The notes beneath the pieces were generated by a model that was given only the letters and a program-made list of their open reading frames with translations, searched no databases and was not told the origin of the DNA. A stretch of 64,000 nucleotides of DNA, taken from assembly GCA_021815405.1 (NCBI GenBank), contig JAKAGV010000017.1:62001-126000 (forward strand), written 5' to 3'. The stretch comes from Bacteroidota bacterium (GTDB lineage: Bacteria > Bacteroidota > Ignavibacteria > Ignavibacteriales > Ignavibacteriaceae). This document shows, piece by piece, positions 46,199-64,000 of the stretch. Position numbers and translations under genes: made by a program. The stretch's first letter is position 1. Each line of letters begins with the position of its first letter.

Positions 46199-47023
46199 AT
46201 GTTTAATGAAAATTTAAAATGGTACTTCCCCGCCAGCATACCGAAAGCGGTACAGCTAATTGAACAGCCGGGGATAATACTTCATGGGGGAGGAACGAGA
46301 ATTTTAAAAACTCAATCCCGCAGCATAATCGGCTTAGTTGACATTTGTAACTTGAAGCTTGATTACATAAAACAAAAAAACAATTTATATCATGTCGGTG
46401 CTGCTGTTACATTCGGTAAAGTTGTAAAATTTTCAAAGGAAAACAATTGCCTTTCGATGCTTGGTACAGCTCTTTCCGAAGCAGCTTCAACACCAGTAAG
46501 GAATAGAATAACTATCGGAGGTTCGATAAAGGACTTTCCTTTGTGGAGCAACTTAATTGCACCTCTTATCGCTTTGGATGCAAAAGTAGAAATTAACAAC
46601 GGCAGTTCTAAAATAATTCCAATCGAAGAATATATTACCAGCGGAATGATTAAAACAAAGCATCTTGTAAAAGAAATAATTATTCCGGAAGATGAAAAAA
46701 TTATTTGGCGCATAAAAAGATTTACTTTGCTGAAGTTCGAATATCCGATTTTTAACATCGCTATAAAATTTAAATTTAACGGAAGTTTAGTTCATGATGC
46801 TGCATTTGTAATTACCGGCGTTAAAAATAGGTTTAAAAGATTCAACAAAGCCGAAAATATCTTTATGGAAAAAAATCTTTCTGAAAAATTAATAAAACAA
46901 GCTATGAAATTTATCGAGCCGAAATTCGTCTCTGATTATAAATATTCTTCAGCATATAAAGAAAAAGTTGCAAAAATCATCTTCGAAGATTTGCTTCTTG
47001 ATATAGCAGGGGTGAAACAATGA
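46199..47023 (+). CDS. xanthine dehydrogenase-family FAD-binding subunit
   Basis: 274 residues, CutM/XdhB-type. LHGGGTRILKTQ and STPVRNRITIGGSIKDFPLWSN are the two FAD-contact loops; here some glycines of the standard AGGTD and TIGGNL motifs are replaced (GGGTRI, TIGGSI). A CO_deh_flav C-terminal domain follows (FEYPIFNIAIKF...). It should pass electrons from the iron-sulfur subunit to the acceptor. AAAGGG ribosome site; ATGA overlap (4 bp) with the next gene. Confidence 0.88.
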   Translation: MFNENLKWYFPASIPKAVQLIEQPGIILHGGGTRILKTQSRSIIGLVDICNLKLDYIKQKNNLYHVGAAVTFGKVVKFSKENNCLSMLGTALSEAASTPVRNRITIGGSIKDFPLWSNLIAPLIALDAKVEINNGSSKIIPIEEYITSGMIKTKHLVKEIIIPEDEKIIWRIKRFTLLKFEYPIFNIAIKFKFNGSLVHDAAFVITGVKNRFKRFNKAENIFMEKNLSEKLIKQAMKFIEPKFVSDYKYSSAYKEKVAKIIFEDLLLDIAGVKQ

Positions 47024-47499
47024 AAATTAAATTCAATATAAATAGCAAGATTGAAGAGCTTGAGATAAGACCTGATGCAACTCTCCTAAATGTTTTAAGA
47101 GATAACGGTTTTACCGAAGTAAAATGCGGATGCAGCGAAGGAGAATGCGGTGCATGCATCGTTTTAATTGATGATAAGACAGTCAACTCATGTCAGGTTC
47201 TTGCAATGAGCGCAGCTTCAAAAAAAATAAAGACGGTCAAAGGAATCGGGACATTGCACAATCCGCACTTACTTCAAAAAATATTTGCAAGTACAGGAGC
47301 CGATCAATGCGGTTTTTGCTCGCCCGGAATGGTATTATCGGCTTATAGTCTTCTTAAAGAAAATCCTAATCCAACTGAGAAAGAAATTGCAGAAGCTCTG
47401 GATGGAAATTTGTGTCGTTGCACCGGCTATGTAAAAATTATTGAGGCTGTTAGGCGTACTGCACAAATTATGAACGAAAACTTAATAAGCCGGGAGTAG
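47020..47499 (+). CDS. xanthine dehydrogenase-family 2Fe-2S subunit
   Basis: 159 residues. N-terminal plant-type ferredoxin cluster with CGCSEGECGACIVLID (Cys 38, 43, 46) and Cys58. C-terminal helical cluster with CGFCSPGMVLSAY (Cys 97, 100) and CRCTGY (Cys 132, 134). All eight cluster cysteines are present. Middle subunit of a three-subunit molybdenum hydroxylase, starting inside the FAD subunit's stop and ending 2 bp before the catalytic subunit. Confidence 0.95.
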   Translation: MKIKFNINSKIEELEIRPDATLLNVLRDNGFTEVKCGCSEGECGACIVLIDDKTVNSCQVLAMSAASKKIKTVKGIGTLHNPHLLQKIFASTGADQCGFCSPGMVLSAYSLLKENPNPTEKEIAEALDGNLCRCTGYVKIIEAVRRTAQIMNENLISRE

Positions 47500-47501
47500 T
47501 T

Positions 47502-49829
47502 ATGTTCAAGTATGTAAAAAAAGCCGTAGAAAAAATTGATGGACTTGCATTAGTAACCGGTAATGAAAAATATACCGATGACTTTTCCTTTGACAAAATG
47601 CTTTATGTTTCAGTACTTCACTCAGGGTATGCTCATGCACAGATTGAAGAATTAGATGATTCTGCCGCAAGAAAAATTCCTGGCGTGGTTGAAATTTTAT
47701 CATACAATAATGTTAATACTATCTTATATACTACAGCCGGACAAGGTTTTCCGGAGCCTTCACCTTATGATACGATTCTATTCGGAAAGACAATGAGATT
47801 CGTCGGCGATAATGTCTGTGCAGTCGCTGCTGAAACTAAGGAGATTGCCGATATTGCATTAAAGAAAATTAAAATTAAATATAAGAGACTTAAACCTCTT
47901 TTAAATTTTGAACAGTCAGATAATTCAAAAATTATTATCCATAAAAATGATGGAGCTTTTCCGAAGATTCCGGTCTATTATGATGCTTCTAAAAATATTG
48001 CTGCAATGGTTGAGGCTGAAGCGGGCGACTTTGAAAAAGCATTTGGAGAATCGAAAAATAAAATCGAAAAAAATTTTTATGTTTCGTACGCTTCACACTG
48101 TGCTTTAGAACCACACGCCGCTGTTTCCTACATTGATAATCGTGGAAGGCTTGTGATTATTTCTACCACACAAGTTCCTTTTCATGTTAGAAGAATTGTT
48201 TCACATGTAGCAGAGATACCAATTTCTAAAATTAGGGTAATTAAACCAAGAATTGGAGGAGGTTTCGGAGGTAAACAGGAAGTTTTGCTTGAACCAATAG
48301 CTGCGCTAGTTACCTGGCGTACAAAGCGTCCTGCAAAGCTTGTTTACAGCAGGAAAGAAGTCTTTAATTCTACAAGGACAAGGCATCAATATAAAACTGT
48401 TTTTAAAGTCGGATTCCAAGATAATGGAATAATTACTGCGCTCCATCTTGATGCTTTAGAAAACTCCGGCGCATACGGCTCTCATGCATTAACGGTGCTT
48501 TCAAATGCCGGCTCTAAAACATTGCCACTCCTGAATAAAATTGAAAATTTAAAATTCACAGGAAAAGGAGTTTACACAAATCTCCCCTGCGGAGGTGCTT
48601 ATAGAGGTTACGGAGCTACAGAAGCTTATTTTGGCTACGGTCAAATTATTGATATGGTCTGCGAAGCAACCAATAATAATATTGTCGAATATTATAAAAA
48701 ATGGTCAATTAAGTCCGGCGAAACTTCGCCAATATTCAAAGCGTTAGGCGAAGGCAAAGAAGGTGTAGCTATGACAATTACCTCTTCTTCACTCGAAGAA
48801 TGTCTTGAAACCGGCTCAAAAGAATTTCACTGGAATGAGAAGAAAAAATTATACGACTCGAATTTCAACAAAGGGAAAAGGATAAAACGCGGTGTTGGAA
48901 TGGCGGCTTTAATGCAGGGTTCAGCTATACCAGAAATAGATATGGCTTCTGCATATATTAAAATGAATGATGACGGCTCGTTTAATTTAAATATAGGAGC
49001 GACCGATCTTGGCACCGGCTCAGATACCATTCTTGCCCAGATTGCTGCCGAAGTTTTGGATGTACCTGTAGAAAAATTTATTGTCACTTCTTCCGATACT
49101 GATTTTACGCCATTTGATACCGGCGCTTATGCTTCATCAACAACTTATTTAACCGGACAAGCAGTTAAGAAGTGTGCAGAAAATATCAAAGAGCAAATTC
49201 TAAAAGTCGGTGCAGAAATTCTCGGAGTTATTCAAAATGAAGTTGAAATTGAAAATGAACAGGTAATTACAAAACCGGGATTTGCTGATTTCCGAAAAAT
49301 TTCTTTTGCTGAAATTTGCAATTATTCATTCTACCAAAACAATCAGTTTCAAATCCAAGCAACGGCTTCTCATGTCTCGCCTAAATCACCTCCGCCTTTC
49401 GCTGCTCACTTTGTAGAAATTGAGGTTGATACTTTTACCGGTATTATAAAAGTTATCAACTATGTTGCCGCAGTAGATTGCGGTACTCCAATAAATCCGA
49501 TCCTGGCTGAAGGTCAAGCAGAAGGCGCAATCGTGAATGGTATTTCTTATGCGTTAGTTGAAAATTATTATTTCTCCGAGTACGGTAAATTACTAAACGA
49601 TACATTTGGGAAGTATGGAGTATACACAGCATCAGATATTCCTCCGATTAAAGTTATTCTAATTGACTCTTATGAGGAAACCGGACCTTTTGGCGCAAAG
49701 TCAATTTCAGAAATAAATATTAATGGACCGCTGCCGGCGATTGCAAATGCTTTCTTCAATGCTACAGGTAAGCGATTATTTAAATCTCCGTTTACTCCGG
49801 AAGATGTTTTAAAAGTTCTGAAAGGATAA
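47502..49829 (+). CDS. molybdenum hydroxylase catalytic subunit (xanthine/hypoxanthine dehydrogenase type)
   Basis: 775 residues. N-terminal aldehyde oxidase/xanthine dehydrogenase a/b hammerhead domain (DGLALVTGNEKYTDDF), then the molybdopterin-binding domain with RIGGGFGGKQEVLLEP, GAYRGYGATEAYF and the catalytic glutamate in GPFGAKSISEI near the C-terminus. It resembles the XdhD branch by context, but here the FeS part is a separate protein, whereas E. coli XdhD is a fusion. Expected to oxidise hypoxanthine/xanthine or act in reverse on uric acid. Stop abuts the convergent xdhC-like gene with no gap. Confidence 0.9.
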   Translation: MFKYVKKAVEKIDGLALVTGNEKYTDDFSFDKMLYVSVLHSGYAHAQIEELDDSAARKIPGVVEILSYNNVNTILYTTAGQGFPEPSPYDTILFGKTMRFVGDNVCAVAAETKEIADIALKKIKIKYKRLKPLLNFEQSDNSKIIIHKNDGAFPKIPVYYDASKNIAAMVEAEAGDFEKAFGESKNKIEKNFYVSYASHCALEPHAAVSYIDNRGRLVIISTTQVPFHVRRIVSHVAEIPISKIRVIKPRIGGGFGGKQEVLLEPIAALVTWRTKRPAKLVYSRKEVFNSTRTRHQYKTVFKVGFQDNGIITALHLDALENSGAYGSHALTVLSNAGSKTLPLLNKIENLKFTGKGVYTNLPCGGAYRGYGATEAYFGYGQIIDMVCEATNNNIVEYYKKWSIKSGETSPIFKALGEGKEGVAMTITSSSLEECLETGSKEFHWNEKKKLYDSNFNKGKRIKRGVGMAALMQGSAIPEIDMASAYIKMNDDGSFNLNIGATDLGTGSDTILAQIAAEVLDVPVEKFIVTSSDTDFTPFDTGAYASSTTYLTGQAVKKCAENIKEQILKVGAEILGVIQNEVEIENEQVITKPGFADFRKISFAEICNYSFYQNNQFQIQATASHVSPKSPPPFAAHFVEIEVDTFTGIIKVINYVAAVDCGTPINPILAEGQAEGAIVNGISYALVENYYFSEYGKLLNDTFGKYGVYTASDIPPIKVILIDSYEETGPFGAKSISEININGPLPAIANAFFNATGKRLFKSPFTPEDVLKVLKG

Positions 49830-50702
49830 CTAAATTTGGTCGTAGTTAAGTCTTAGGTGCTTCACTTCCTTGCCATTGGAAATAGCTTGTATTTGTGCTA
49901 AAATGCTTAGTGCAATTTCATCCGGTGAATCGCCCCCGATATCAATTCCAATTGGAGAATACAAGTTTTTAAAATCAATAGTACCTCCTATTTTTTTCTT
50001 CAGATAAGAAATACCTTCTTTCACTTTCCGTTTAGATCCAATCATTCCGACATAATTCATCTCGGGATAATTTTTATAAATATATTCCAGGACTTGAAGG
50101 TCATTTGTATGATTATGAGTTAGTATTATTGCAAATCCTTTTATGTCCAGCTTCAAATAGTTCTTACTCCTCTCAGGAAGAGTTTGAAGTTCAGAAAGAT
50201 TTTTTTCATTGAATAAATCAGGCTGAAGTTCTTCTAATATCTGTTTTCTGTTATCATAAATAGAAACAAAATAGTTTAGCTGCATTGCGAGCCTCGCTAC
50301 AGCCCTTCCGACATGACCTGCACCGAAGATATAAATTATTTTCGCAGGTTTATATACTTCATAAAATAAAGTTACTTCGCCTCCGCACAAAGCATTAATT
50401 TGTATTTCATTGTCATGTTTTAATTCTATATTTCCTGGTTCCGAACCTGATAATGTATCTTTCATTACCAAGGTTTCCAGTAAATTTCCGAGATTAGATT
50501 TAAGAAGCTCTTTGGATTTATTTATTGCATGAAGTTCTACGCCGCCGCCGCCTATTGTACCAGCTACTCTTCCATTTTCACCGACAAGCATTTTAAACCC
50601 GGCTTTTCCCGGAGTACTTCCCTTCATTTCTATTATAGTTACTAGAACACTTGCTTCGTTCTCATTTATTCTTTTGTTAAGAACTTCAAAAACTTCTTTC
50701 AT
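49830..50702 (-). CDS. XdhC/CoxI-family molybdenum cofactor insertion factor
   Basis: 290 residues. N-terminal XdhC domain (VLVTIIEMKGSTPGKAGFKMLV, GGGVELHA, CGGEVTLFYE) and C-terminal Rossmann domain (IYIFGAGHVGRAVARLAM, LTHNHTNDLQVLE, YVGMIGSKRKV, SPIGIDIGGDSPDEIALSI). Members bind and sulfurate or deliver molybdenum cofactor to xanthine-dehydrogenase-type enzymes, here those encoded convergently at 46.2-49.8 kb. Last gene of the minus-strand operon; starts within the upstream stop (4-bp overlap). Confidence 0.93.
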   Translation of the reverse strand: MKEVFEVLNKRINENEASVLVTIIEMKGSTPGKAGFKMLVGENGRVAGTIGGGGVELHAINKSKELLKSNLGNLLETLVMKDTLSGSEPGNIELKHDNEIQINALCGGEVTLFYEVYKPAKIIYIFGAGHVGRAVARLAMQLNYFVSIYDNRKQILEELQPDLFNEKNLSELQTLPERSKNYLKLDIKGFAIILTHNHTNDLQVLEYIYKNYPEMNYVGMIGSKRKVKEGISYLKKKIGGTIDFKNLYSPIGIDIGGDSPDEIALSILAQIQAISNGKEVKHLRLNYDQI

Positions 50703-52162
50703 AAATTTCCTGTTTCAGAATTAAACTCGGCAATTAATTTATCAATTTTATTAACCGAATTTTGGATACGATTCCAATAATCTGGATAGTCATACCATTG
50801 TGAATTGAGCTCTTCGGTATTTTTACCCTGCTGTTCAATCCAAGTGAAATATTTTAAATTATGAATTCGTTTTTTGTCGTAGTAACCTAGTTCCATCATT
50901 GAGGATGTATTAGCACCGGTAAGATTTTTATGGTAGGATTTGATTGCATTTTCTTTACCATATTTACCATATTTTTGATTCCATTCCTTCAAACGAGAAC
51001 CGTAAAGTTCCATTGAATCAGTTAAAATCGTAAAGACTACGTCATTTTCATTCAGCTCAAAATACTTAGCAAATTTTATTGATGCCAAAAGATTAGCAGC
51101 ACCGGAAATACCCACCTGGTTTAATTCCTCTGTAATTTTTGAATCGATACCTGAATCAATTAAAAAATTTCTTCCTGAATCTTCATTAAAGAGTCTGATT
51201 AATTCAATACAATCCTCATCATCAATTGCAATTACCATGTCTGTGTTTCTGATATTGTGAATCCATGGAACATGCTTATCGCCAATTCCCTCAATCCTAT
51301 GCCCGCCAAATCCGTTCATTAAGAGAGTTGGACATTGGAGAGCTTCAGTAGCAGCAATTTTCATTTGAGGATATTTTTGTTTTAGGAAATCGCCCGCTGC
51401 AATTGTGCCTGCAGAGCCTGTAGATGAAACGAACCCGGCAACATTTCCCTTGCCATTTAACACCTTTTCAAAGACTTCTTTTATCGCATTACCGGTTACT
51501 TCGTAGTGCCACAAATAATTTCCAAATTCTTCAAATTGGTTAAAGATTTTTATATCGCTTCTATTCTTTTTAAGTTCATTGCACTTATCGAAAATTTCTT
51601 TCACATTACTTTCGCAGCCTGGTGTTGCTATTACTTCACCCGCAAGCTCGCTTAGCCATTCGAATCTTTCTCTACTCATCTCTTCAGGCAAAATAGCAAT
51701 CGATTCACAACCGAGAAGTGCAGAATTAAAAGCTCCACCACGGCAATAATTTCCCGTAGATGGCCAAACAGCTTTTTGCATAATCGAATCAAAATTTCCT
51801 GTTACCAATGCAGGGGCAAGGCATCCGTAAGTAGCACCAACTTTATGAGCGCCGGTGGGAAACCACTTTCCGGTTAATGCAATTATCCTTGCGTTAACTC
51901 CAGTTAATTCACGCGGGAATTCAAAATAATTAACATCACCAAATCCTCCACCGAAATCTTTCTTCTCATTCTTCCAGGTTATACGAAAAAGATTCAATGG
52001 ATTTACATCCCATAGTCCGACATTTCTAATTTTTTCTTTCAGCGATAAAGTATTCTTTGCTGGTTCCTTCATCTGCTCGAAGGTCGGAAGTAATATCTTC
52101 TTTTCTCTGCATCGCTTAATATTATTATCTCTCTCTGCTTTGTTTATTTTCAAGTTAATCAC
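50699..52162 (-). CDS. fold-type-II PLP enzyme with TrpB-like lysine motif
   Basis: 487 residues, GTG start overlapping the MocA-like gene by 8 bp. Tryptophan-synthase-beta superfamily: LTGKWFPTGAHKVGATYG with the PLP lysine (compare TGAHK of TrpB), STGNYCRGGAFNSALLGC, GFVSSTGSAGTIAAGDFLK and GISGAANLLASIKFAKYF. The family is annotated only as a pyridoxal-phosphate-dependent (cysteine-synthase-like) enzyme. In purine islands such an enzyme may replace YgeX, diaminopropionate ammonia-lyase, releasing ammonia from a diamino acid (inference). Length is about 90 residues above YgeX. Confidence 0.75.
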   Translation of the reverse strand: MINLKINKAERDNNIKRCREKKILLPTFEQMKEPAKNTLSLKEKIRNVGLWDVNPLNLFRITWKNEKKDFGGGFGDVNYFEFPRELTGVNARIIALTGKWFPTGAHKVGATYGCLAPALVTGNFDSIMQKAVWPSTGNYCRGGAFNSALLGCESIAILPEEMSRERFEWLSELAGEVIATPGCESNVKEIFDKCNELKKNRSDIKIFNQFEEFGNYLWHYEVTGNAIKEVFEKVLNGKGNVAGFVSSTGSAGTIAAGDFLKQKYPQMKIAATEALQCPTLLMNGFGGHRIEGIGDKHVPWIHNIRNTDMVIAIDDEDCIELIRLFNEDSGRNFLIDSGIDSKITEELNQVGISGAANLLASIKFAKYFELNENDVVFTILTDSMELYGSRLKEWNQKYGKYGKENAIKSYHKNLTGANTSSMMELGYYDKKRIHNLKYFTWIEQQGKNTEELNSQWYDYPDYWNRIQNSVNKIDKLIAEFNSETGNL

Positions 52163-52844
52163 TTAAAGCCTCCTTTTTCAATTTGAGTTTTTCAAAATAT
52201 TTTTCAGCCTTTATAAAATCAATATTGTCATCAATATCAAGACAGATTCCCTCATCTTCCACAAGACATATTTTTTGTCTATACTTTTTCAGGATATTTC
52301 TGAAAATAATTTCATGCTCATCCTCCAAAACTTTTTTAACTATCCCTGATTTAATTAAAACTGGATGACCTTTTTTTATCAACTCTCCAACGTTTCCATT
52401 TGAAGAATCCAATGCAACCGCAGGAAGAAATACCTCAATTTTTTCATCTAAAAATTGGAGAATCATACTGGAAAAGGTTTGTTCACTTACAAACGGCATA
52501 TCTCCGGGAAGAATAAAAATGCCATCTGCGGCTTCATCTACAAAGCTTAAGCCGCACTTCACAGATGAAAGCATTCCATTCAAATATTTCTTATTCTCAA
52601 CAATAGAAATATTTTCTTTTTTACCATTGAAAGAAGAGGAGTATTTCTCAATTAAATATTCTAATCCTGAAAAATTGAATCCACCGACGATAATAATTTT
52701 ATCACAATGTTGTATCATCGAATTAATAGAATGTATGATAATCGGAACACCATCAATTTTTACTTCCGGTTTCCATTCATTCATTCGCATCGATAATCCG
52801 GCTGCAAGAATTATCCCTTCAAATCTCTTTTTGATTTCTCTCAT
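52155..52844 (-). CDS. MocA-like molybdenum cofactor nucleotidyltransferase
   Basis: 229 residues. NTP-transferase Rossmann-like fold starting FEGIILAAGLSMRMNEWKPEVKIDG, with the LAAGxSxRM phosphate loop and lysine, FILPGDMPFVSE (metal Asp) and GHPVLI. It matches the MobA-like/MocA group, which makes molybdopterin cytosine dinucleotide for xanthine-dehydrogenase-family enzymes; E. coli YgfJ in the homologous island is a member. Lies 13 bp after the threonine-synthase-like gene. Confidence 0.88.
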   Translation of the reverse strand: MREIKKRFEGIILAAGLSMRMNEWKPEVKIDGVPIIIHSINSMIQHCDKIIIVGGFNFSGLEYLIEKYSSSFNGKKENISIVENKKYLNGMLSSVKCGLSFVDEAADGIFILPGDMPFVSEQTFSSMILQFLDEKIEVFLPAVALDSSNGNVGELIKKGHPVLIKSGIVKKVLEDEHEIIFRNILKKYRQKICLVEDEGICLDIDDNIDFIKAEKYFEKLKLKKEALSD

Positions 52845-56587: not shown

Positions 56588-59500
56588 ATGGCAAAACGTT
56601 TTGTACCGGTCGAGTTCAATCATCTTTTGATGTGGATTTTTAATGAATACTTTTCACAAGGTTCAATATTCGGAATACCGTCTTCCAAATTTTATATCAA
56701 AAAAAATAAGAACGATATCCCAATATTTAATCAATCAATCGAAACGCCGATAGGTCCAGCGGCAGGTCCGCACACGCAGCTAGCTCAAAATATAATCTCT
56801 TCCTATTTAGTTGGCGGAAGATTTATTGAATTGAAAACCGTCCAGGTCCTTGATTCAATTACTGTTTCTAAACCATGCATTGATGCTGAGGATGAATGCT
56901 ACAATGTTGAATGGTCTCAGGAATTAAATCTTGAACAATCATACGACGAATATCTAAAAGCCTGGTTGATAATCCATATCCTTGAACATGCATTAAATCT
57001 TTCATTGTCGCAAAATTCATTCATTTTCAATATAAGCCTTGGATATGATTTTAAAGGAATTACCTCCGGTAAGATGGATGAGTTTATTAACTCCATGAAA
57101 GATTCTTCCGGAAATAAATTGTTCGAACAATATAAGGAATTAATTCAAAGTAAGAGCTTTTATAAAAAGTTTCTCTCAGCTGCTTTAAATAATAACATTC
57201 TTAATGAAGAAGAGATTAATCGATTTCGAGAATCATTTTTAAATATCAATCATATTCCCCCCAATATTTCAGAATCAATTATTCTTTCGACTATGCACGG
57301 CTGTCCTCCAAACGAAATTGAAAAAATAGCTGAATATTTAATAAGAGTTAAGCAATTACATACTTTCATTAAATTAAATCCAACTCTTCTTGGAAAACGA
57401 AGAGTTGAAAATATTCTGTCTGAAACCGGTTTCAATAATATAAAGTTGAAAGATGAAAGTTTTGAGAAGGATTTGAAATTCAGTGAAGCGGAAGATGTAA
57501 TCAAAAGACTTCAAACATTTGCTGCTAATAATAAAAGAGAATTCGGAATAAAACTATCAAATACTCTTGGTGTGAAAAACAATAAGCTGAAATTACCGGA
57601 TGCGGAAATGTATTTATCCGGAAGAGCTTTGTTCCCGCTTACAATAAATCTTGCTTATGATTTAGCAAGGTCATTCAACGGTAAGATTGGAATTTCTTTT
57701 TCCGGCGGCGCAAATGCTTCAAACATTAAAGACATTTTGTCAACTGGAATATTCCCTGTCACAATGGTTACTGATTTATTAAAACCAGGTGGTTACCTAA
57801 GGCTGTTTGAAACTGCTAAAGCTGTGGAAGATATTGTTGTTAATAATATCCATGGAAGCCATATTCAACTTAACCAGCTCCAGCATCTTTCCGAAAATTC
57901 ACTTTCAGATTTAAATTATAACAAAGGGAAAAGAAAAACTAATGTAATAAAAATTTCCAAAAGACTTGGAAAGTTTGACTGCTATATTGCCCCATGCCAG
58001 GCAGCTTGTCCAATAGATCAGGATGTTTCTGAATATATTAGATTGATTGAAGAAAAGAAATTCAAGGAAGCTTACGAGGTTATCGCTGCAAAAAATCCTT
58101 TGCCTAATATTACTTCTTACATTTGCGAGCATCATTGTACTACTAAATGTACGAGATGGGATTATGATTCTCCTTTAGCTATACGCGAGTTAAAAAAAGA
58201 GGCAGCCCTGAAAGGTTATAACCAGTTCATCAAAGGACTGAGAAATAATAATTCTATGCAAGAAGCAAAAATAAATGTTGCAGTAATTGGTGCCGGACCT
58301 GCAGGATTATCTGCTGCATATTTTCTTTCGCTTTCAGGATTTGATGTAACAATATTTGAAAAAAGCAGCAAAGCCGGCGGTACGGTCAGCCATATCATTC
58401 CTGAATTTAGAATACCTAAAGAAATAATTACTAAAGATATAGAGTTTATTATTTCTTTAGGAGTAAAGATAAATTACAATGCTGATAGTCATTTTAATAT
58501 CAATGAGATTAAACAAAAAGATTTTAAATATATTTTTATTGGAATAGGCGCACTTCAACCAACCCAATTAAAATTAGATAAAAGTAATGGAAAGATATTA
58601 ACTTCTATCGAAATGCTTCGCTCATTCAATAAAAAAGAAAAGTTAAATCTTGGAAAAACCGTTGCGGTTATTGGAGGCGGCAACTCAGCAATGGATAGTG
58701 CTCGCGCAGCATTACGAGTTGATAAAGTTGAAAAAGTATTCATTATATATCGTCGTACACAAGAATTTATGCCGGCAGACAAAGAAGAATTTGAGGCTGC
58801 AATTTCTGACGGAGTTATATTTAAGGAACTTCTTGTCCCGGTTTCATTTGAAAATAATATTCTTAAATGCCAAAAAATGAAATTGGGAAAGATTGACAGC
58901 GACGGCAGGAGAAAAACAGTTCCCGTTCAAAATGAATATGAAGACATATTAGTAGATACTGTTATTTCCGCAATTGGGGAACAGGTGGATTTCGAGCTGC
59001 TTTCAAAAAATGAACTGCTGAAAGATTCTTTTGGAAAATTAATTGTGGATCCCATAACCTGCGAGACGAATATTGAAAATGTTTATATCGGCGGTGATGC
59101 ATTTAGAGGACCATCTTCTGTTGTTCAAGCTATTGCCGATGGGAAGAAAGCAGCAGACGATATTCTTTATAAAGAAGGTCGAATACTTTTTGATAAAATT
59201 CATTCTGACAATTATTATAACGTCCCTAATCGTCTAAAAGATATCCAGGAAAGAAAAGGCAAAGTATATAGCATCAATTCCGGAAAATTTGTTGATGAAG
59301 CTTCAAGATGTTTAGGATGTAATTTAATCTGTAATAAATGTGTTGAAGTTTGTCCAAACAGAGCAAATGTAGCTTTGGAATCAAATAATATAGGGAACGG
59401 TTTTATTAATGCTTATCAGATTATTCATCTTGATGGATTATGCAATGAATGCGGCAATTGCGAAACTTTTTGCCCTTACGATGACGCTCCGTATAAAACT

Positions 59501-59782
59501 AAACTGACGATATTCTGGTCGGAAAAGGATTTTCGCGACAGCATCAACAGCGGGTTTTATGTAAAAAGCAAAGTGAATGGGAATTCAGAGGTAGTTCAAA
59601 TTCAGTACCGCATAAATAATGAGATAGGAAAATATTTAAGCAGTGCAAATGGAATAATGCATACTATTAATCCCGCTAATTCTTCTGAAGAACTTGAGAG
59701 ACTTTCAAATATTATTTCGAACATTATCAAGAATTTTCCTTATCTCTTAAGTCCGTCGGAAAATAAAATATTTAAGGAATGA
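56588..59782 (+). CDS. ygfK: YgfK-type iron-sulfur flavoenzyme (putative selenate reductase subunit)
   Basis: 1064 residues, close to E. coli YgfK. N-terminal dihydroorotate/dihydropyrimidine-dehydrogenase-like barrel (1-440; IETPIGPAAGPHTQLAQNII, LSTMHGCPPNEIEKI, ISFSGGANASN). Then a GltD-type Fe-S region (CYIAPCQAACP 465-475; CEHHCTTKC 513-521), FAD and NAD(P) Rossmann motifs (GAGPAG 568-573; GGGNSA 696-701), and a C-terminal 2x[4Fe-4S] ferredoxin (Cys 908, 911, 915, 918, 922 and Cys 952, 955, 958, 962). Required for anaerobic uric-acid/purine use in enteric bacteria; probably supplies electrons to ring reduction. Followed 1 bp later by ssnA. Confidence 0.93.
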   Translation: MAKRFVPVEFNHLLMWIFNEYFSQGSIFGIPSSKFYIKKNKNDIPIFNQSIETPIGPAAGPHTQLAQNIISSYLVGGRFIELKTVQVLDSITVSKPCIDAEDECYNVEWSQELNLEQSYDEYLKAWLIIHILEHALNLSLSQNSFIFNISLGYDFKGITSGKMDEFINSMKDSSGNKLFEQYKELIQSKSFYKKFLSAALNNNILNEEEINRFRESFLNINHIPPNISESIILSTMHGCPPNEIEKIAEYLIRVKQLHTFIKLNPTLLGKRRVENILSETGFNNIKLKDESFEKDLKFSEAEDVIKRLQTFAANNKREFGIKLSNTLGVKNNKLKLPDAEMYLSGRALFPLTINLAYDLARSFNGKIGISFSGGANASNIKDILSTGIFPVTMVTDLLKPGGYLRLFETAKAVEDIVVNNIHGSHIQLNQLQHLSENSLSDLNYNKGKRKTNVIKISKRLGKFDCYIAPCQAACPIDQDVSEYIRLIEEKKFKEAYEVIAAKNPLPNITSYICEHHCTTKCTRWDYDSPLAIRELKKEAALKGYNQFIKGLRNNNSMQEAKINVAVIGAGPAGLSAAYFLSLSGFDVTIFEKSSKAGGTVSHIIPEFRIPKEIITKDIEFIISLGVKINYNADSHFNINEIKQKDFKYIFIGIGALQPTQLKLDKSNGKILTSIEMLRSFNKKEKLNLGKTVAVIGGGNSAMDSARAALRVDKVEKVFIIYRRTQEFMPADKEEFEAAISDGVIFKELLVPVSFENNILKCQKMKLGKIDSDGRRKTVPVQNEYEDILVDTVISAIGEQVDFELLSKNELLKDSFGKLIVDPITCETNIENVYIGGDAFRGPSSVVQAIADGKKAADDILYKEGRILFDKIHSDNYYNVPNRLKDIQERKGKVYSINSGKFVDEASRCLGCNLICNKCVEVCPNRANVALESNNIGNGFINAYQIIHLDGLCNECGNCETFCPYDDAPYKTKLTIFWSEKDFRDSINSGFYVKSKVNGNSEVVQIQYRINNEIGKYLSSANGIMHTINPANSSEELERLSNIISNIIKNFPYLLSPSENKIFKE

Positions 59783-59783
59783 A

Positions 59784-61106
59784 ATGCTGATTTTAAAAAA
59801 TGCTAAAGTAATTAATTTCTATCCGTCCGATATGACTGAAAATATTGATGTTATAATTGATAAAAATATTATTTTGGACGTCGGTAAAAATATCTCTGTT
59901 AAATATAAAGCGGATAAAATAATTTACTTATCCGGCAAATATATTTCGCCAGGTCTTGTATGCGCTCATAATCATTTTTATTCCTCACTGGCAAGAGGAA
60001 TTCTAGCACAAATAAAACCGGCAAATAATTTTCTGGAAATTCTAAAGAACTTGTGGTGGAAACTTGATCAATCTATTGATGAAGAAATACTTTATTATAG
60101 CGGAATTATCGGCGCACTCGAAGCCATTAAAGCCGGCACTACTGCTGTCATCGACCACAACTCCTCTCCGGGCTTTATTGAAGGCTCACTTAATACTCTG
60201 AAAAAATGTTTTAACGAAACCGGTCTCCGTGGAATTTTATGTTACGAGATAACAGATAGGAACGGAGTAAAGAAGATTCAGGAAAGTCTAAAAGAATCAA
60301 TAAAATTTATTTCAGAAATTAATGGAGAAAAAGAGAAAAGCAAATCAAACCTAGTTGAAGCTGCTGTAGGCGCTCATGCACAGTTTACTTTAAGCGATAA
60401 AACTCTTTCTTCGATTTCAGAATTAGTAAGTCAAAGTAAAAGAGGGATTCACATACATGTTTGCGAAGACAAATCTGATTTTGAATATGCTAAAAATAAT
60501 TTTAAAATGACTCCAATTGAAAGGCTTGAACGTTTTAATCTTTTAAATGATAAATCCATACTTGCTCATGGAGTTTATTTAACAAAGAAAGATATCAAAA
60601 TAATTAATGGAAATAATTCCTTCTTAGTTCATAATCCCCGCTCAAACATGAACAATGGAGTTGGCTATGTAAAATATCCTGGACTTGTTGACAACTCTGC
60701 TTTAGGCACTGATGGAATAGGTTCAAATATGCTTGAAGAAATTAAGTTTGCCCTTTTCAAAAACAACGATTCCAAGGACAAAATCCCAATCGAGAATTTT
60801 TTAAAATTCTTACAAAATGGAAATATAATCCTTGAACGCTATTTCAACAAGAAGTTTGGCAGAATAGCACCTGGTTATACTGCGGATATTGTTGCTTACG
60901 ATTATTCCTCCCCCACTCCATTTGTTAAAGAGAATTTAGCCGGACATTTAACTTTCGGTTTTTCATCAAGAGATGTAGAATCAGTAATAATTAATGGAAG
61001 GCTGGTGTATGAGAATAGGCAATTCACTTTTGATACTTCAAAGATATATTTAGAAGCAAGTAAAGTTGCCCAAAGTTTATGGGCACGAATGAATAAGCTA
61101 AAATAA
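59784..61106 (+). CDS. ssnA: SsnA-type aminohydrolase
   Basis: 440 residues. Amidohydrolase fold with CAHNHFYSSLARGI (HxH metal motif), TTAVIDHNSSPGFIEGSL, GIHIHVCEDKSD, LAHGVYLTKKD, NPRSNMNNGVGY and GTDGIGSNMLEEI. It matches SsnA of the E. coli island, a predicted purine-intermediate deaminase or ring hydrolase. Only 1 bp after ygfK, same operon. It is distinct from the 8-oxoguanine-deaminase-like enzyme at 44.8 kb; the island therefore encodes two amidohydrolases. Confidence 0.93.
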   Translation: MLILKNAKVINFYPSDMTENIDVIIDKNIILDVGKNISVKYKADKIIYLSGKYISPGLVCAHNHFYSSLARGILAQIKPANNFLEILKNLWWKLDQSIDEEILYYSGIIGALEAIKAGTTAVIDHNSSPGFIEGSLNTLKKCFNETGLRGILCYEITDRNGVKKIQESLKESIKFISEINGEKEKSKSNLVEAAVGAHAQFTLSDKTLSSISELVSQSKRGIHIHVCEDKSDFEYAKNNFKMTPIERLERFNLLNDKSILAHGVYLTKKDIKIINGNNSFLVHNPRSNMNNGVGYVKYPGLVDNSALGTDGIGSNMLEEIKFALFKNNDSKDKIPIENFLKFLQNGNIILERYFNKKFGRIAPGYTADIVAYDYSSPTPFVKENLAGHLTFGFSSRDVESVIINGRLVYENRQFTFDTSKIYLEASKVAQSLWARMNKLK

Positions 61107-61160: not shown

Positions 61161-62909
61161 TTATATTTCTACCGGAACTTCGTCCGTAATCAAAGCCCTG
61201 TAATGAATAATTTCATTAGCGATTTTTCTGTCTTCTATATTTCCATATTCCACAAGTACCGGATTTTGGATTGACCATCTTCTGCATACTTCTTCAATAA
61301 GCTCATTTCGAACAACAAGAACTAATATATTTTTGAATCCGGAAAAAATCTCATCTAAACTATTTGACCAACCTTCTCCTTTTAATTCAAGAGGACCTAT
61401 TTCATCAACTACGCATACGTCGAGACTTTTTACTTTTTCCAAGGCAAGTGCTTGTCGTCCAAATTTAAGACCTTCTTGTTCAAAATAGAAATTCCCAATT
61501 TTAACGTTATTTGAATTTGATTCGACTGAGCAAAGCTTCTTAGAGTTACCCGAACAGACATCCACAATATCAAATGCCGCGCGCTTATTTTCTGACCAAT
61601 ATCCCGGAGCTAGTATTCCACCGATATTCAATCCTTCAGCCCTCAAACATTCGACTGTCTTTGTAAGCAAAGTAGTTTTACCACTTCCTTTTTCTCCTTT
61701 AATAATAAATACTAAAGGTAATCCTGTGGAATGTTTTTCAATCCGCTCAAGCCAATCGTCAGCTTTTTTAATAAGCCTTGCAACAGATGAGACCGGCTGC
61801 TTAAAAATTTTTTTCTCTTCTGAAATGTTGGCAACCATAAAGGGAAGAATTCTGAATGCTGCTTCAAGTGACTGAGAGAACTGACTCATTCCTTTCTTCT
61901 TAAACCATTTTTCGATAACCGGATTCCTAATTTCAATGCTTATGCTTGAAAAACCGATTATCATTAAGAAAGCACGCAGGTTAATCGATACACCCAAATA
62001 AAATCCGGCTAACGCAGAATTTCCCGTATTATTGTTTAGATTGCTCAGCAGCCATCCGGAGAGCAATGCAATAACTATAATCGCAAACCAAAATTTCGGC
62101 TTTTTTAATCTCTTAAGATTTTGTTTATAAAGTATTATACAAACTACCACGTAAGACAAAATAAAAATAGATGAAATCCATAATGAAAAATTTCCTAATA
62201 AAATCAATCCGGCTGCTATAGCCGTTATGTGAAATAATAGCATAGGAATTGAATACTTCTGATCAATGTTATTAGGAATAATATTTATAGCTGATTTTAG
62301 ATTTGGAGAAGCTAAAAATTTTTCATCCGGAAAATTTTTCGACATTTGGCTAACTCTAATTCCTATTAGCCCAGCTATACCGCCGATAATTAAATCCAGA
62401 AAGAATAATAAGAAGATTAAAGTCCACGGATTTTCCATCGGAATATTCAATTGCTTAATAGCGAACTGGTATAACTTTGAATAAAGTTCTATGATATTAA
62501 ATCCATAGATTATAATTAGATTAATAATTTTATAGAAAAGAGACCATGATACAGCAAGCCCCCCGCCCAATATAAATCCGGCATAATTTGAACCTATAAA
62601 ACTGATGACAGCTTCCAGTATAAAAGCTTCCGCAGCAATGCTAATCATTGGTCCGAAAATGTCAGCGCTTGGGGAAATAGTTTTCATTACTGCACATATT
62701 AAACCAGCACGCCATATAATTCCATTAGCTTTCCAATAACGACTGCTGCCCACGAGAAGAATAACAGCAATAAATGTTAAAATGGTTCCGGAGAATGGGA
62801 TGTGGGCGTTGTGAAGAAAGCTTCCCAATATTATTTCGCTTGAAGCCCACAAACTACCGATAACAGATGCTTTAAGCCAGACTGAACTTAATTCGTTCTT
62901 CCCTTTCAA
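61161..62909 (-). CDS. fusion of ECF-like membrane parts with THEP1-type NTPase
   Basis: 582 residues, TTG start (the only start before an upstream in-frame stop). Residues about 10-190 contain six hydrophobic helices like an ECF transporter S component. Residues about 215-385 hold further helices and a charged helical segment (NPVIEKWFKKKGMSQF, AFRILPFMVANISEEKKIF) resembling EcfT/CbiQ coupling helices, though without the classical Ala-Arg-Gly motifs. Residues 398-582 are an NTPase_1/THEP1 P-loop domain: GEKGSGKTT (405-413) and VCVVDEIGPLEL (498-509). It is between ssnA and an acetate-kinase-like gene, so a purine-related uptake or signalling role is inferred. Confidence 0.7.
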   Translation of the reverse strand: MKGKNELSSVWLKASVIGSLWASSEIILGSFLHNAHIPFSGTILTFIAVILLVGSSRYWKANGIIWRAGLICAVMKTISPSADIFGPMISIAAEAFILEAVISFIGSNYAGFILGGGLAVSWSLFYKIINLIIIYGFNIIELYSKLYQFAIKQLNIPMENPWTLIFLLFFLDLIIGGIAGLIGIRVSQMSKNFPDEKFLASPNLKSAINIIPNNIDQKYSIPMLLFHITAIAAGLILLGNFSLWISSIFILSYVVVCIILYKQNLKRLKKPKFWFAIIVIALLSGWLLSNLNNNTGNSALAGFYLGVSINLRAFLMIIGFSSISIEIRNPVIEKWFKKKGMSQFSQSLEAAFRILPFMVANISEEKKIFKQPVSSVARLIKKADDWLERIEKHSTGLPLVFIIKGEKGSGKTTLLTKTVECLRAEGLNIGGILAPGYWSENKRAAFDIVDVCSGNSKKLCSVESNSNNVKIGNFYFEQEGLKFGRQALALEKVKSLDVCVVDEIGPLELKGEGWSNSLDEIFSGFKNILVLVVRNELIEEVCRRWSIQNPVLVEYGNIEDRKIANEIIHYRALITDEVPVEI

Positions 62910-62987: not shown

Positions 62988-64000
62988 TTAATTCAAATAC
63001 TCATTGGCAATTACTTTTTCAACACTATCATTAAAATAAAATATCTTAGGAAAAAATTCTTTTACTGCAATTCTTTTTAATTCGGGAATCAGCCAGTCGG
63101 CAAAATAATGTGCAGCATCTACATACCTGCCGGAAAATGCAAGTGCATCAAAGCCATCCATAGCTGCTATAGCAGAGCCGCATTGCAGTAGTATTTTATA
63201 TTTGAAAATCTTGGCAGCTTTTTTATTATCCTTTTCATCTTTAAATACATCACTAATTGTAATTTGTTTACCAGCAATTGCAGATAGCCCGCTTTGCCTG
63301 GTGATAATCTCATTTAATGTTTCGGCACCATATTTTTTCTTTTCTTCAATTAGAATTAATATACCGGGATCGAGTTCGCCGCAAGTTGTATCACCTGGGA
63401 TTCCTTCAACTGGAGTAGCGCCACTTGAAGTCATTATAGGTTTTCCATCAATGACGGCTGCTATCTCAGGCACGGGGTCAAGGCAAATAGAAATTATTTT
63501 TCTGACTTCAGGATTTTCATTTTTTATTTTATCATAAACGGCTTTATGGATTAAGCCATGGTAGCCATATCTTCTGATATCCATTTTAAGTAGACTTTTG
63601 TCCAATGCGTATACTTGTTCATAATCAGGAAGACTAGCAAAGAATGCAGTCTCAAAGAACAATTTAATTTCAATATTAGGTGAGATTTCTTTTATTAATT
63701 TTATCAATCTTATAACAGCAGGAATATCAAGCGGCGATTGAGCAACAAGTTTTTCTAATTTCTCAATAGTTAAATTGTCGCAAACAACTTCCTTGTTAAA
63801 TTTTTTACCACCATACAAAACTCTTATCGCTGCAAATTTGGGGTTATAGTTTTTAACTAAACTTATAATATTATCTTTTTTACTTCCAGGGCTTCTGAAC
63901 TTTACTTTTCCGCTTATTAGAAGCTTGTGCTCGGGACCTGACTTTTCGCTTAATTCTTTTTCTGATGTTAAATTATTCCAACCTATTTCATAAACAAAAT
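62988..64000 (-). CDS. acetate/butyrate kinase family protein, N-terminus cut by window edge
   Basis: The frame stays open to the right edge, so about 337 C-terminal residues are visible and the true start lies beyond 64000. ASKHA fold kinase motifs: AAIRVLYGGKKF (compare HRVVHGG of acetate kinase), FFETAFFASLPDYEQVYALD, RRYGYHGLIHKAV (RYGFHG), ISICLDPVPEIAAVIDGKP, and TPVEGIPGDTTCGELDPGI. The catalytic and phosphate residues diverge somewhat: SICLDP replaces the usual HLGNG, so activity is uncertain. Next to purine genes it could recover ATP from acetyl phosphate derived from glycine. Confidence 0.75.
   Translation of the reverse strand, partial: FVYEIGWNNLTSEKELSEKSGPEHKLLISGKVKFRSPGSKKDNIISLVKNYNPKFAAIRVLYGGKKFNKEVVCDNLTIEKLEKLVAQSPLDIPAVIRLIKLIKEISPNIEIKLFFETAFFASLPDYEQVYALDKSLLKMDIRRYGYHGLIHKAVYDKIKNENPEVRKIISICLDPVPEIAAVIDGKPIMTSSGATPVEGIPGDTTCGELDPGILILIEEKKKYGAETLNEIITRQSGLSAIAGKQITISDVFKDEKDNKKAAKIFKYKILLQCGSAIAAMDGFDALAFSGRYVDAAHYFADWLIPELKRIAVKEFFPKIFYFNDSVEKVIANEYLN

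Follow-up and report, generated by a model that had tools for sequence, protein, structure and literature searches.

A membrane protein combining a predicted ECF S-component fold, a T-like part and a THEP1-type NTPase is a candidate importer of the molybdenum cofactor in Ignavibacteriales

A single gene in a 64,000-nucleotide stretch of Ignavibacteriaceae DNA (the whole of which is referred to below as the window) encodes a protein that, with a probability we put at about 0.6, would serve as the inner-membrane importer of a molybdenum cofactor (Moco) salvage system, being ECF-like in its construction and having Moco or molybdopterin as its ligand. The family to which this protein belongs accompanies molybdenum enzymes, Moco riboswitches and MobA, and is common in enzyme-bearing genomes without detected MoaA, MoaC and MoeA; transport, ligand and energy coupling are what we infer for the proposed importer. 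A wider proposal, to which we would give somewhat less than even odds, is that of a dedicated importer of intact Moco, composed of an ECF S component, a T-like part and an NTPase of the THEP1 rather than the ABC type, which would feed MobA/MocA directly, replace cofactor synthesis in many Ignavibacteriales and explain part of the "orphan molybdoprotein" organisms.

The fusion gene and its surroundings

The gene is encoded on the minus strand, which the earlier description had not given; its start codon is TTG, and it specifies 582 amino acids without an internal stop codon. Both motifs reported for this frame by a reading of the sequence alone (hereafter the sequence-only reading), GEKGSGKTT and VDEIGPLEL, are present in its translation. 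Since full-length relatives of the fusion exist in other genomes (75% identity in G007, 60% in G003, 58% in G012 and 35% in G034) and the five fusions form one group in a tree, a chance open reading frame is excluded. No plasmid gave a tblastn match to the fusion protein, and a PHROGs search with it returned nothing relevant. The position given earlier for the gene, between ssnA and an acetate-kinase-like gene, was borne out by matches of the two neighbours to TIGR03314 and PF00871. The relevant features of the window are the following.

46199..47023, plus strand: molybdenum hydroxylase, FAD subunit (PF00941, PF03450)
47020..47499, plus strand: molybdenum hydroxylase, [2Fe-2S] subunit (PF01799, PF00111)
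47502..49829, plus strand: Moco-binding subunit, xanthine-oxidase family (PF01315, PF02738, PF20256)
49830..50702, minus strand: XdhC/CoxI-type protein (PF02625, PF13478)
52155..52844, minus strand: MocA/YgfJ-like Moco nucleotidyltransferase (PF12804, E 2.4e-24; TIGR03310, 111.6 bits, below the cut-off of 186.45)
56588..59782, plus strand: ygfK, island neighbour (TIGR03315)
59784..61106, plus strand: ssnA, immediate neighbour of the fusion gene, ending at 61106 (TIGR03314)
61161..62909, minus strand: fusion gene, S-component domain, T-like domain and THEP1-type NTPase (582 aa, TTG start)
62310..62909, minus strand: residues 1-200, predicted ECF S-component fold (structural match to 5edl with 166 residues aligned, Z 15.4; conservation)
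61725..62309, minus strand: residues 201-395, probable T-like (CbiQ/EcfT-like) membrane part (weak CbiQ profile matches of split relatives)
61161..61724, minus strand: residues 396-582, THEP1-type P-loop NTPase, stop codon included (PF03266, E 4.9e-25)
From 62988 on: acetate-kinase-family gene on the other side of the fusion gene (PF00871)

Past ssnA, the window contains ygfK (TIGR03315), ygeY (TIGR03526) and a carbamoyltransferase gene. The MocA-like gene, the XdhC gene and the gene for the xanthine-oxidase-family enzyme are located 8-15 kb from the fusion gene, and the last of these (47502..49829) likely encodes the client enzyme of the fusion protein. Two tandem genes resembling the acetate-kinase family stand beside the fusion (window 62988-63998 and L031 10989-13270); with the NCBIfam profiles for acetate kinase, the nearer of the two remains well short of the cut-off scores.

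The S domain and the T-like part

Residues 1-395 matched no Pfam or NCBIfam family above cut-off. An AlphaFold2 model of this region, calculated with 51 S-T relatives in the alignment, had a mean pLDDT of 70.5, the S part being mostly at 80-96 by blocks and the T part at 41-70. Comparison of modelled residues 5-195 with solved structures retrieved the ECF S component 5edl (166 residues aligned at an rmsd of 2.9, Z 15.4), followed by three more S-component chains at Z 10.7-10.9, while the next chain, an unrelated one, stood at Z 7.5. Foldseek alone ranked 5edl 13th (E 0.57, probability 0.96, TM 0.54 by target length), below chains of low TM-score. In the model, residues 5-195 adopt the six-helix fold of S components. 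Five of 23 S members gave weak matches to PF09819 (best E 3.7e-4) and five of 23 to PF09605 (best E 2.1e-4); NCBIfam profiles gave nothing relevant with these members, and a search of PDB sequences with the S profile returned no chain. Invariant residues of the domain (alignment A1, 23 rows) are W21, E25, G29, G41 and G176. The model thus supports an assignment of residues 5-195 to the ECF S components at the level of fold, as had been suggested from the translation.

Residues ~205-395 are, judging by the sequences of relatives, probably a T-like (CbiQ/EcfT-like) part. TIGR02454 (CbiQ) was matched by 6 of 13 T members, all six being within the eight that are split from S, at E values of 2.9e-5 to 0.031 and with scores far below the family cut-off, and PF02361 was matched by 5 of 13 (best E 2.6e-3). 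The T part of the window's own protein had no match to either profile in the profile search, and the T profile retrieved from PDB sequences one unrelated chain at E 0.65. A separate model of the T domain had a pTM of 0.33 and reached at best Z 5.5, to an unrelated chain; no ECF T component was present among the 22 chains listed (31 aligned) for this low-confidence model. Structure prediction over residues 1-395, which had been suggested as a check of both membrane modules, recovered the S fold and gave no clear match for the T part; the probable T-like module is backed by the weak CbiQ matches of split relatives.

The THEP1-type NTPase domain

The sequence of the C-terminal part makes its THEP1 type certain. 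PF03266 (NTPase_1) matched residues 402-542 with an E value of 4.9e-25 (88.7 bits against a cut-off of 23.9), the two motifs named above correspond to the Walker A and DExGxLE motifs of the THEP1/NTPase_1 group, and the domain aligns with the solved THEP1 structures 2i3b and 1ye8. The narrower family NF010248 scored 86.6, below its cut-off of 156, and the MobB family PF03205 matched the P-loop weakly, with E 4e-4, which is below cut-off. No ABC-transporter family was found among the domain matches of the fusion protein, in agreement with the original assignment to THEP1/NTPase_1 and not to the ABC ATPases.

Both motif patterns were detected in 27 of the 32 NTPase open reading frames adjoining S-T genes of the named loci. 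PF03266 and PF12804 (MobA-like) were also found in one protein, across two phyla, in an Ignavibacteriales MAG (L092) and in two Bacteroidota MAGs (L133 and L134), with PF03266 just under its cut-off in L133. The NTPase-MobA-like fusions are located as follows.

L049, 7642-8715 (same protein as L092)
L092, 10013-11086
L133, 6199-7323
L134, 6900-8015

With S-T as its fusion partner in the window and a MobA-like domain as its partner elsewhere, the NTPase would tie together the predicted importer, the NTPase itself and nucleotide transfer to Moco. Since NTPase genes without S-T also occur, the role of the THEP1-type NTPase may be cofactor hand-off rather than energy supply.

The same two observations, NTPase genes without S-T and NTPases fused to MobA-like domains, speak for a reading in which the substance handled by the membrane part is linked to molybdenum in another way, be it a precursor, a pterin in degraded form or a compound for export, or in which that part anchors the NTPase at the membrane for Moco maturation without any transport. 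Three genomes (G017, G090 and G106) that have S and MoeA and match neither MoaA nor MoaC, as if molybdenum-free molybdopterin entered the cell, speak for this explanation as well. We nevertheless hold it unlikely: the S-component fold and the presence of a TonB receptor within the operon favour uptake, and an early precursor would need MoeA, which is unmatched in the genome of the window (G000).

Forms of the family and their neighbours

The Moco importer reading was examined in a set of 146 genomes that consisted of G000 and its relatives in the genus, family and order. Some part of the fusion protein was matched in 84 of the 146 genomes, in many of them by an NTPase alone, and the S-domain profile was matched in 93. 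Three forms can be distinguished in the genomic regions examined. Form (a) comprises fusions of ~580 aa in five genomes (G000, G003, G007, G012 and G034), the one in G034 being followed downstream by a TonB receptor gene. Form (b), found at eight loci, consists of separate S (~200 aa), T (~185 aa) and TonB receptor (~640 aa) proteins, with an NTPase gene after the receptor in four of the eight; the receptor of L040 was confirmed by Pfam. Form (c) is a single S-T protein of ~300-400 aa, often with a separate adjoining NTPase whose gene overlaps that of S-T in 29 of the 32 pairs found side by side at the named loci. A count over unnamed and named copies of some loci, made with an impure NTPase profile (8 S proteins in 63 rows), was set aside and redone on the named loci, and a mixed alignment of fusion, S-T and NTPase rows was discarded because it placed S-T rows on NTPase columns. 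In a tree of 74 S domains, whose bootstrap has not settled and whose long branches are flagged, the five fusions fall as one group inside the form (b) part and the S-T form is on the other side.

A NapA-like or other molybdopterin oxidoreductase is encoded in seven of the eight form (b) loci. Form (c) genes neighbour molybdopterin oxidoreductases that have NrfD-like subunits, islands for xanthine dehydrogenase or for purine degradation, and MobA; at some form (c) loci none of these four is nearby; the NapA and NrfD labels were assigned by reading of the sequences. S genes were located no more than 15 kb from a molybdenum-enzyme gene at 45 of 110 places, compared with ~2.1 expected under uniform placement, a count that is to be read as at least 45, since only listed PF02738 and PF01568 genes were considered, and in which the S places include contig-end fragments. 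A further set of 57 named S-T loci was found via the S-T protein alone, with neighbours detected by 24 probe proteins and several loci ending at contig edges. A catalytic molybdenum-enzyme gene is present at 15 of these loci, and such a gene, XdhC or MobA/MocA at 20 (23 if small subunits, Fe-S proteins and NrfD are also counted); an adjacent NTPase was found at 32, a CMD-family (AhpD-like) gene at 27 and purine-island genes at 7.

These neighbourhoods bear on the ligand, for which the sequence-only reading had proposed a purine or a molybdenum-related compound. An importer of a purine or purine catabolite would agree with the fact that ssnA adjoins four of the five fusions, and the concern that the fusion might occur mostly away from purine genes proved unfounded for the same reason. 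In the wider family, however, purine-island genes (7 of 57 named S-T loci) are outnumbered by catalytic molybdenum-enzyme genes (15, or 20 with XdhC or MobA/MocA added), seven of the nine members led by a Moco riboswitch (see below) stand by a NapA-like or other molybdopterin oxidoreductase, and the purine islands themselves encode molybdenum hydroxylases. A purine ligand was therefore rejected as the main reading on the neighbourhoods of the wider family, and we regard it as very improbable. The molybdenum-related part of the proposal is upheld by the neighbours and by the nine Moco riboswitches, and the evidence on the ligand points past a molybdenum-related compound to the cofactor itself.

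Moco riboswitches

The Moco riboswitch family RF01055 was detected at 35 places in 34 of the 146 genomes (above cut-off in 32 genomes). At nine of the places an S gene of the same strand follows after 42-194 nt, and these places belong to all eight loci of form (b) and to the fusion in G034. At 25 others a MoaA or MoeA match lies downstream at a distance of up to 3.7 kb, and one more is near a contig end. The gathering score was reached by eight of the nine S-leading riboswitches, the one in G039 being below it. Among the RF01055 places of the 146 genomes, none leads a gene of the S-T type. No RF01055 match at gathering score precedes the fusion gene of the window, around which only snoRNA, lncRNA and miRNA families were matched, far below their gathering scores (E 1.1-8.1).

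Neither MoaA nor MoaC was matched in seven of the nine genomes with a riboswitch-led S gene (G026, G039, G090, G097, G100, G106 and G123), with MoeA being retained in G090 and G106. A Moco-sensing leader before the S operon in apparent non-makers of Moco is what a cofactor importer predicts.

At L078 1792-2630, L079 7393-8229 and L080 6485-7316, riboswitch-led synthesis operons start with a CMD (AhpD-like) protein and a half-size protein of the chromate-transporter family, followed by MoaA. The chromate-transporter family was assigned by PF02417 for L078 and by similarity for L079 and L080, and these half-size proteins may be considered candidate molybdate transporters. The CMD protein is thereby tied to Moco synthesis operons, and the same CMD type is the one counted above at 27 of the 57 named S-T loci.

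Distribution of Moco synthesis genes and of the S domain

The phylogenetic profile covers MoaA, MoaC, MoeA, ModA, the S domain and the molybdenum-enzyme families PF02738 and PF01568. Out of 146 genomes, MoaC was matched in 51, MoaA above cut-off in 53 (a match below cut-off in G055 being uncounted), MoeA in 53 and ModA above cut-off in 12 (26 with any match). The molybdenum-enzyme families PF02738 and PF01568 were found in 104 and 77 genomes, the latter being counted from 39 bits up, with weaker matches, many of them in open reading frames of ~1,000 aa, dropped. G000, which is 99.98% complete, has three PF02738 matches and no match to MoaC, MoaA, MoeA or ModA (PF01967, PF06463, PF03453 and TIGR01256).

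MoaA, MoaC and MoeA were all unmatched in 87 genomes, of which 52 have both a molybdenum enzyme and S, 12 an enzyme without S, 8 S without an enzyme and 15 neither (Fisher p 1e-4 for S versus enzyme, which is a guide only, as the genomes are related). When enzyme-bearing genomes are considered, S is present in 52 of 64 without synthesis genes compared with 27 of 47 with MoaA and MoaC (p 0.01, the genomes again being related); regardless of enzymes, the p value for S versus MoaA/MoaC is only 0.08. The presence of S in 26 of 47 genomes that have MoaA, MoaC and MoeA counts against the importer reading, and so do the 12 genomes with an enzyme and no detected S, the 8 with S and no detected enzyme, and the lack of a riboswitch before the fusion gene of the window and before all S-T-type genes.

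The genomes with an enzyme, no synthesis genes and no detected S are G014, G020, G025, G035, G045, G066, G069, G074, G080, G098, G102 and G137. G025 carries a diverged S-like open reading frame near NTPase and MobA genes (E 0.0015), G098 (100% complete) and G102 (99%) have an NTPase and a full xanthine dehydrogenase island without S, G137 has only an NTPase within the regions examined, and G080 (100% complete) has neither S nor a match to any part of the fusion protein. Conversely, eight genomes with S have no match to PF02738, no strong match to PF01568 and none to PF00174; the last, taken as an extra molybdenum-enzyme family, was looked for in 36 of the 87 genomes that lack synthesis-gene matches and was matched in none of them.

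In a rival reading the importer, likewise ECF-like, would carry molybdate or tungstate and not the organic cofactor. Moco riboswitches lead Moco synthesis operons in these genomes too, and, since ModA is above cut-off in only 12 of 146 genomes, the synthesis-positive ones need another molybdate importer. Yet neither MoaA nor MoaC nor MoeA is matched in the 52 genomes that carry both S and a molybdenum enzyme, and molybdate alone would therefore be useless to them. Moreover, S is present in just 27 of the 49 genomes with MoaA and MoaC, and in the synthesis operons of L078, L079 and L080 it is the gene of the chromate-transporter family that may carry molybdate. A TonB receptor, finally, is not expected for the uptake of a small oxyanion. 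We consider molybdate or tungstate a quite unlikely ligand.

Proposed pathway and comparison with known systems

In the pathway that we propose for Moco import, the TonB receptor, in operons having one, would carry Moco or molybdopterin (MPT) across the outer membrane, the S domain would bind Moco or MPT, and the T-like part would couple S to the NTPase. NTP hydrolysis would drive or gate release into the cytoplasm or, alternatively, the NTPase would, like MobB, take charge of the cofactor. MobA/MocA-type enzymes would then add the nucleotide, and XdhC-type factors would finish the cofactor for the client enzyme. G000 matches neither MoeA nor ModA, and the form that it imports is therefore probably one with the metal in place; for G017, G090 and G106, metal-free molybdopterin is a possible imported form. 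The relatives of the TonB receptor of G034 that are found in G000 are all distant, scoring 44 bits at most, which also weighs against the importer reading. Relatives of the G034-type receptor were also seen apart from any recognised S gene at L141 (G137) and L142 (G020), and S profiles recognised no S in the regions around them.

The S fold and the S-T gene order are shared with the ECF vitamin transporters, which consist of S, T and two ABC ATPases, and the T-like part probably is too, to judge by the weak CbiQ similarity of split relatives; the protein of the window differs from them in its THEP1-type NTPase, in having S, T and NTPase in one chain and in its predicted ligand, Moco. Known THEP1 members (PF03266; 1ye8, 2i3b) are soluble, whereas the domain of the window, though above the Pfam cut-off and alignable with both structures, is fused to membrane S-T, and those of its relatives to a MobA-like domain. 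ModABC, TupABC and WtpABC, which carry oxyanions, have in common with the proposed importer a link to molybdenum use but are made of different parts, and ModA, the one looked for, is unmatched in G000. A likeness to MobB, the P-loop partner of MobA, is seen in the weak PF03205 match and in the fusion of NTPase relatives to a MobA-like domain; the NTPase of the window is, however, better matched by PF03266 and is fused to a membrane part.

Use of Moco made by others is known from dietary uptake in C. elegans (PMC9793310; worm Moco feeding is also covered by the available part of PMC9607355), for which the available text of PMC9793310 calls the membrane route unknown and names no transporter. 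The same text gives de novo synthesis as the prevailing view, with exogenous uptake not examined or observed beyond C. elegans. For orphan molybdoprotein organisms, the accessible portion of PMC6147048 cautions that genomes may be incomplete and proposes two answers, new synthesis genes or enzymes that do not depend on Mo. In the part of PMC3766115 that is at hand, coenzyme uptake appears among RNA-regulated gene classes without Moco, and Mo and W transporters are placed under metals. Of three other papers, one suggests that certain outer-membrane proteins of type 11 secretion may take up cobalamin or molybdopterin (PMC12282271), one describes a Moco riboswitch of Caldithrix that precedes the gene of a molybdate transporter, MoaA, MoaC and MoeA being part of the locus (PMC5317091), and one cites Moco uptake reactions as an example of unrealistic gap-filling in E. 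coli (PMC3423039). Among the matches listed from the open-licence literature for Moco uptake, salvage, auxotrophy or ECF transport, titles and opening abstract lines describe no bacterial Moco importer; no link of THEP1 to transport was found in the same literature. If our reading is true, a Moco importer would be a third answer to the orphan molybdoprotein organisms, besides new synthesis genes and Mo-independent enzymes, an ECF-type transporter would be coupled to a non-ABC NTPase, THEP1-type NTPases would gain a role, and Moco-deficient bacteria could take the cofactor from outside.

A further S-like protein, diverged in sequence and 193-204 aa long, was observed at L041 (17888-18469, minus strand), L042 (2762-3352, plus strand) and L045 (3774-4388, plus strand). 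Its genes have no recognised T neighbour and share their islands with the riboswitch-led S-T-TonB operon.
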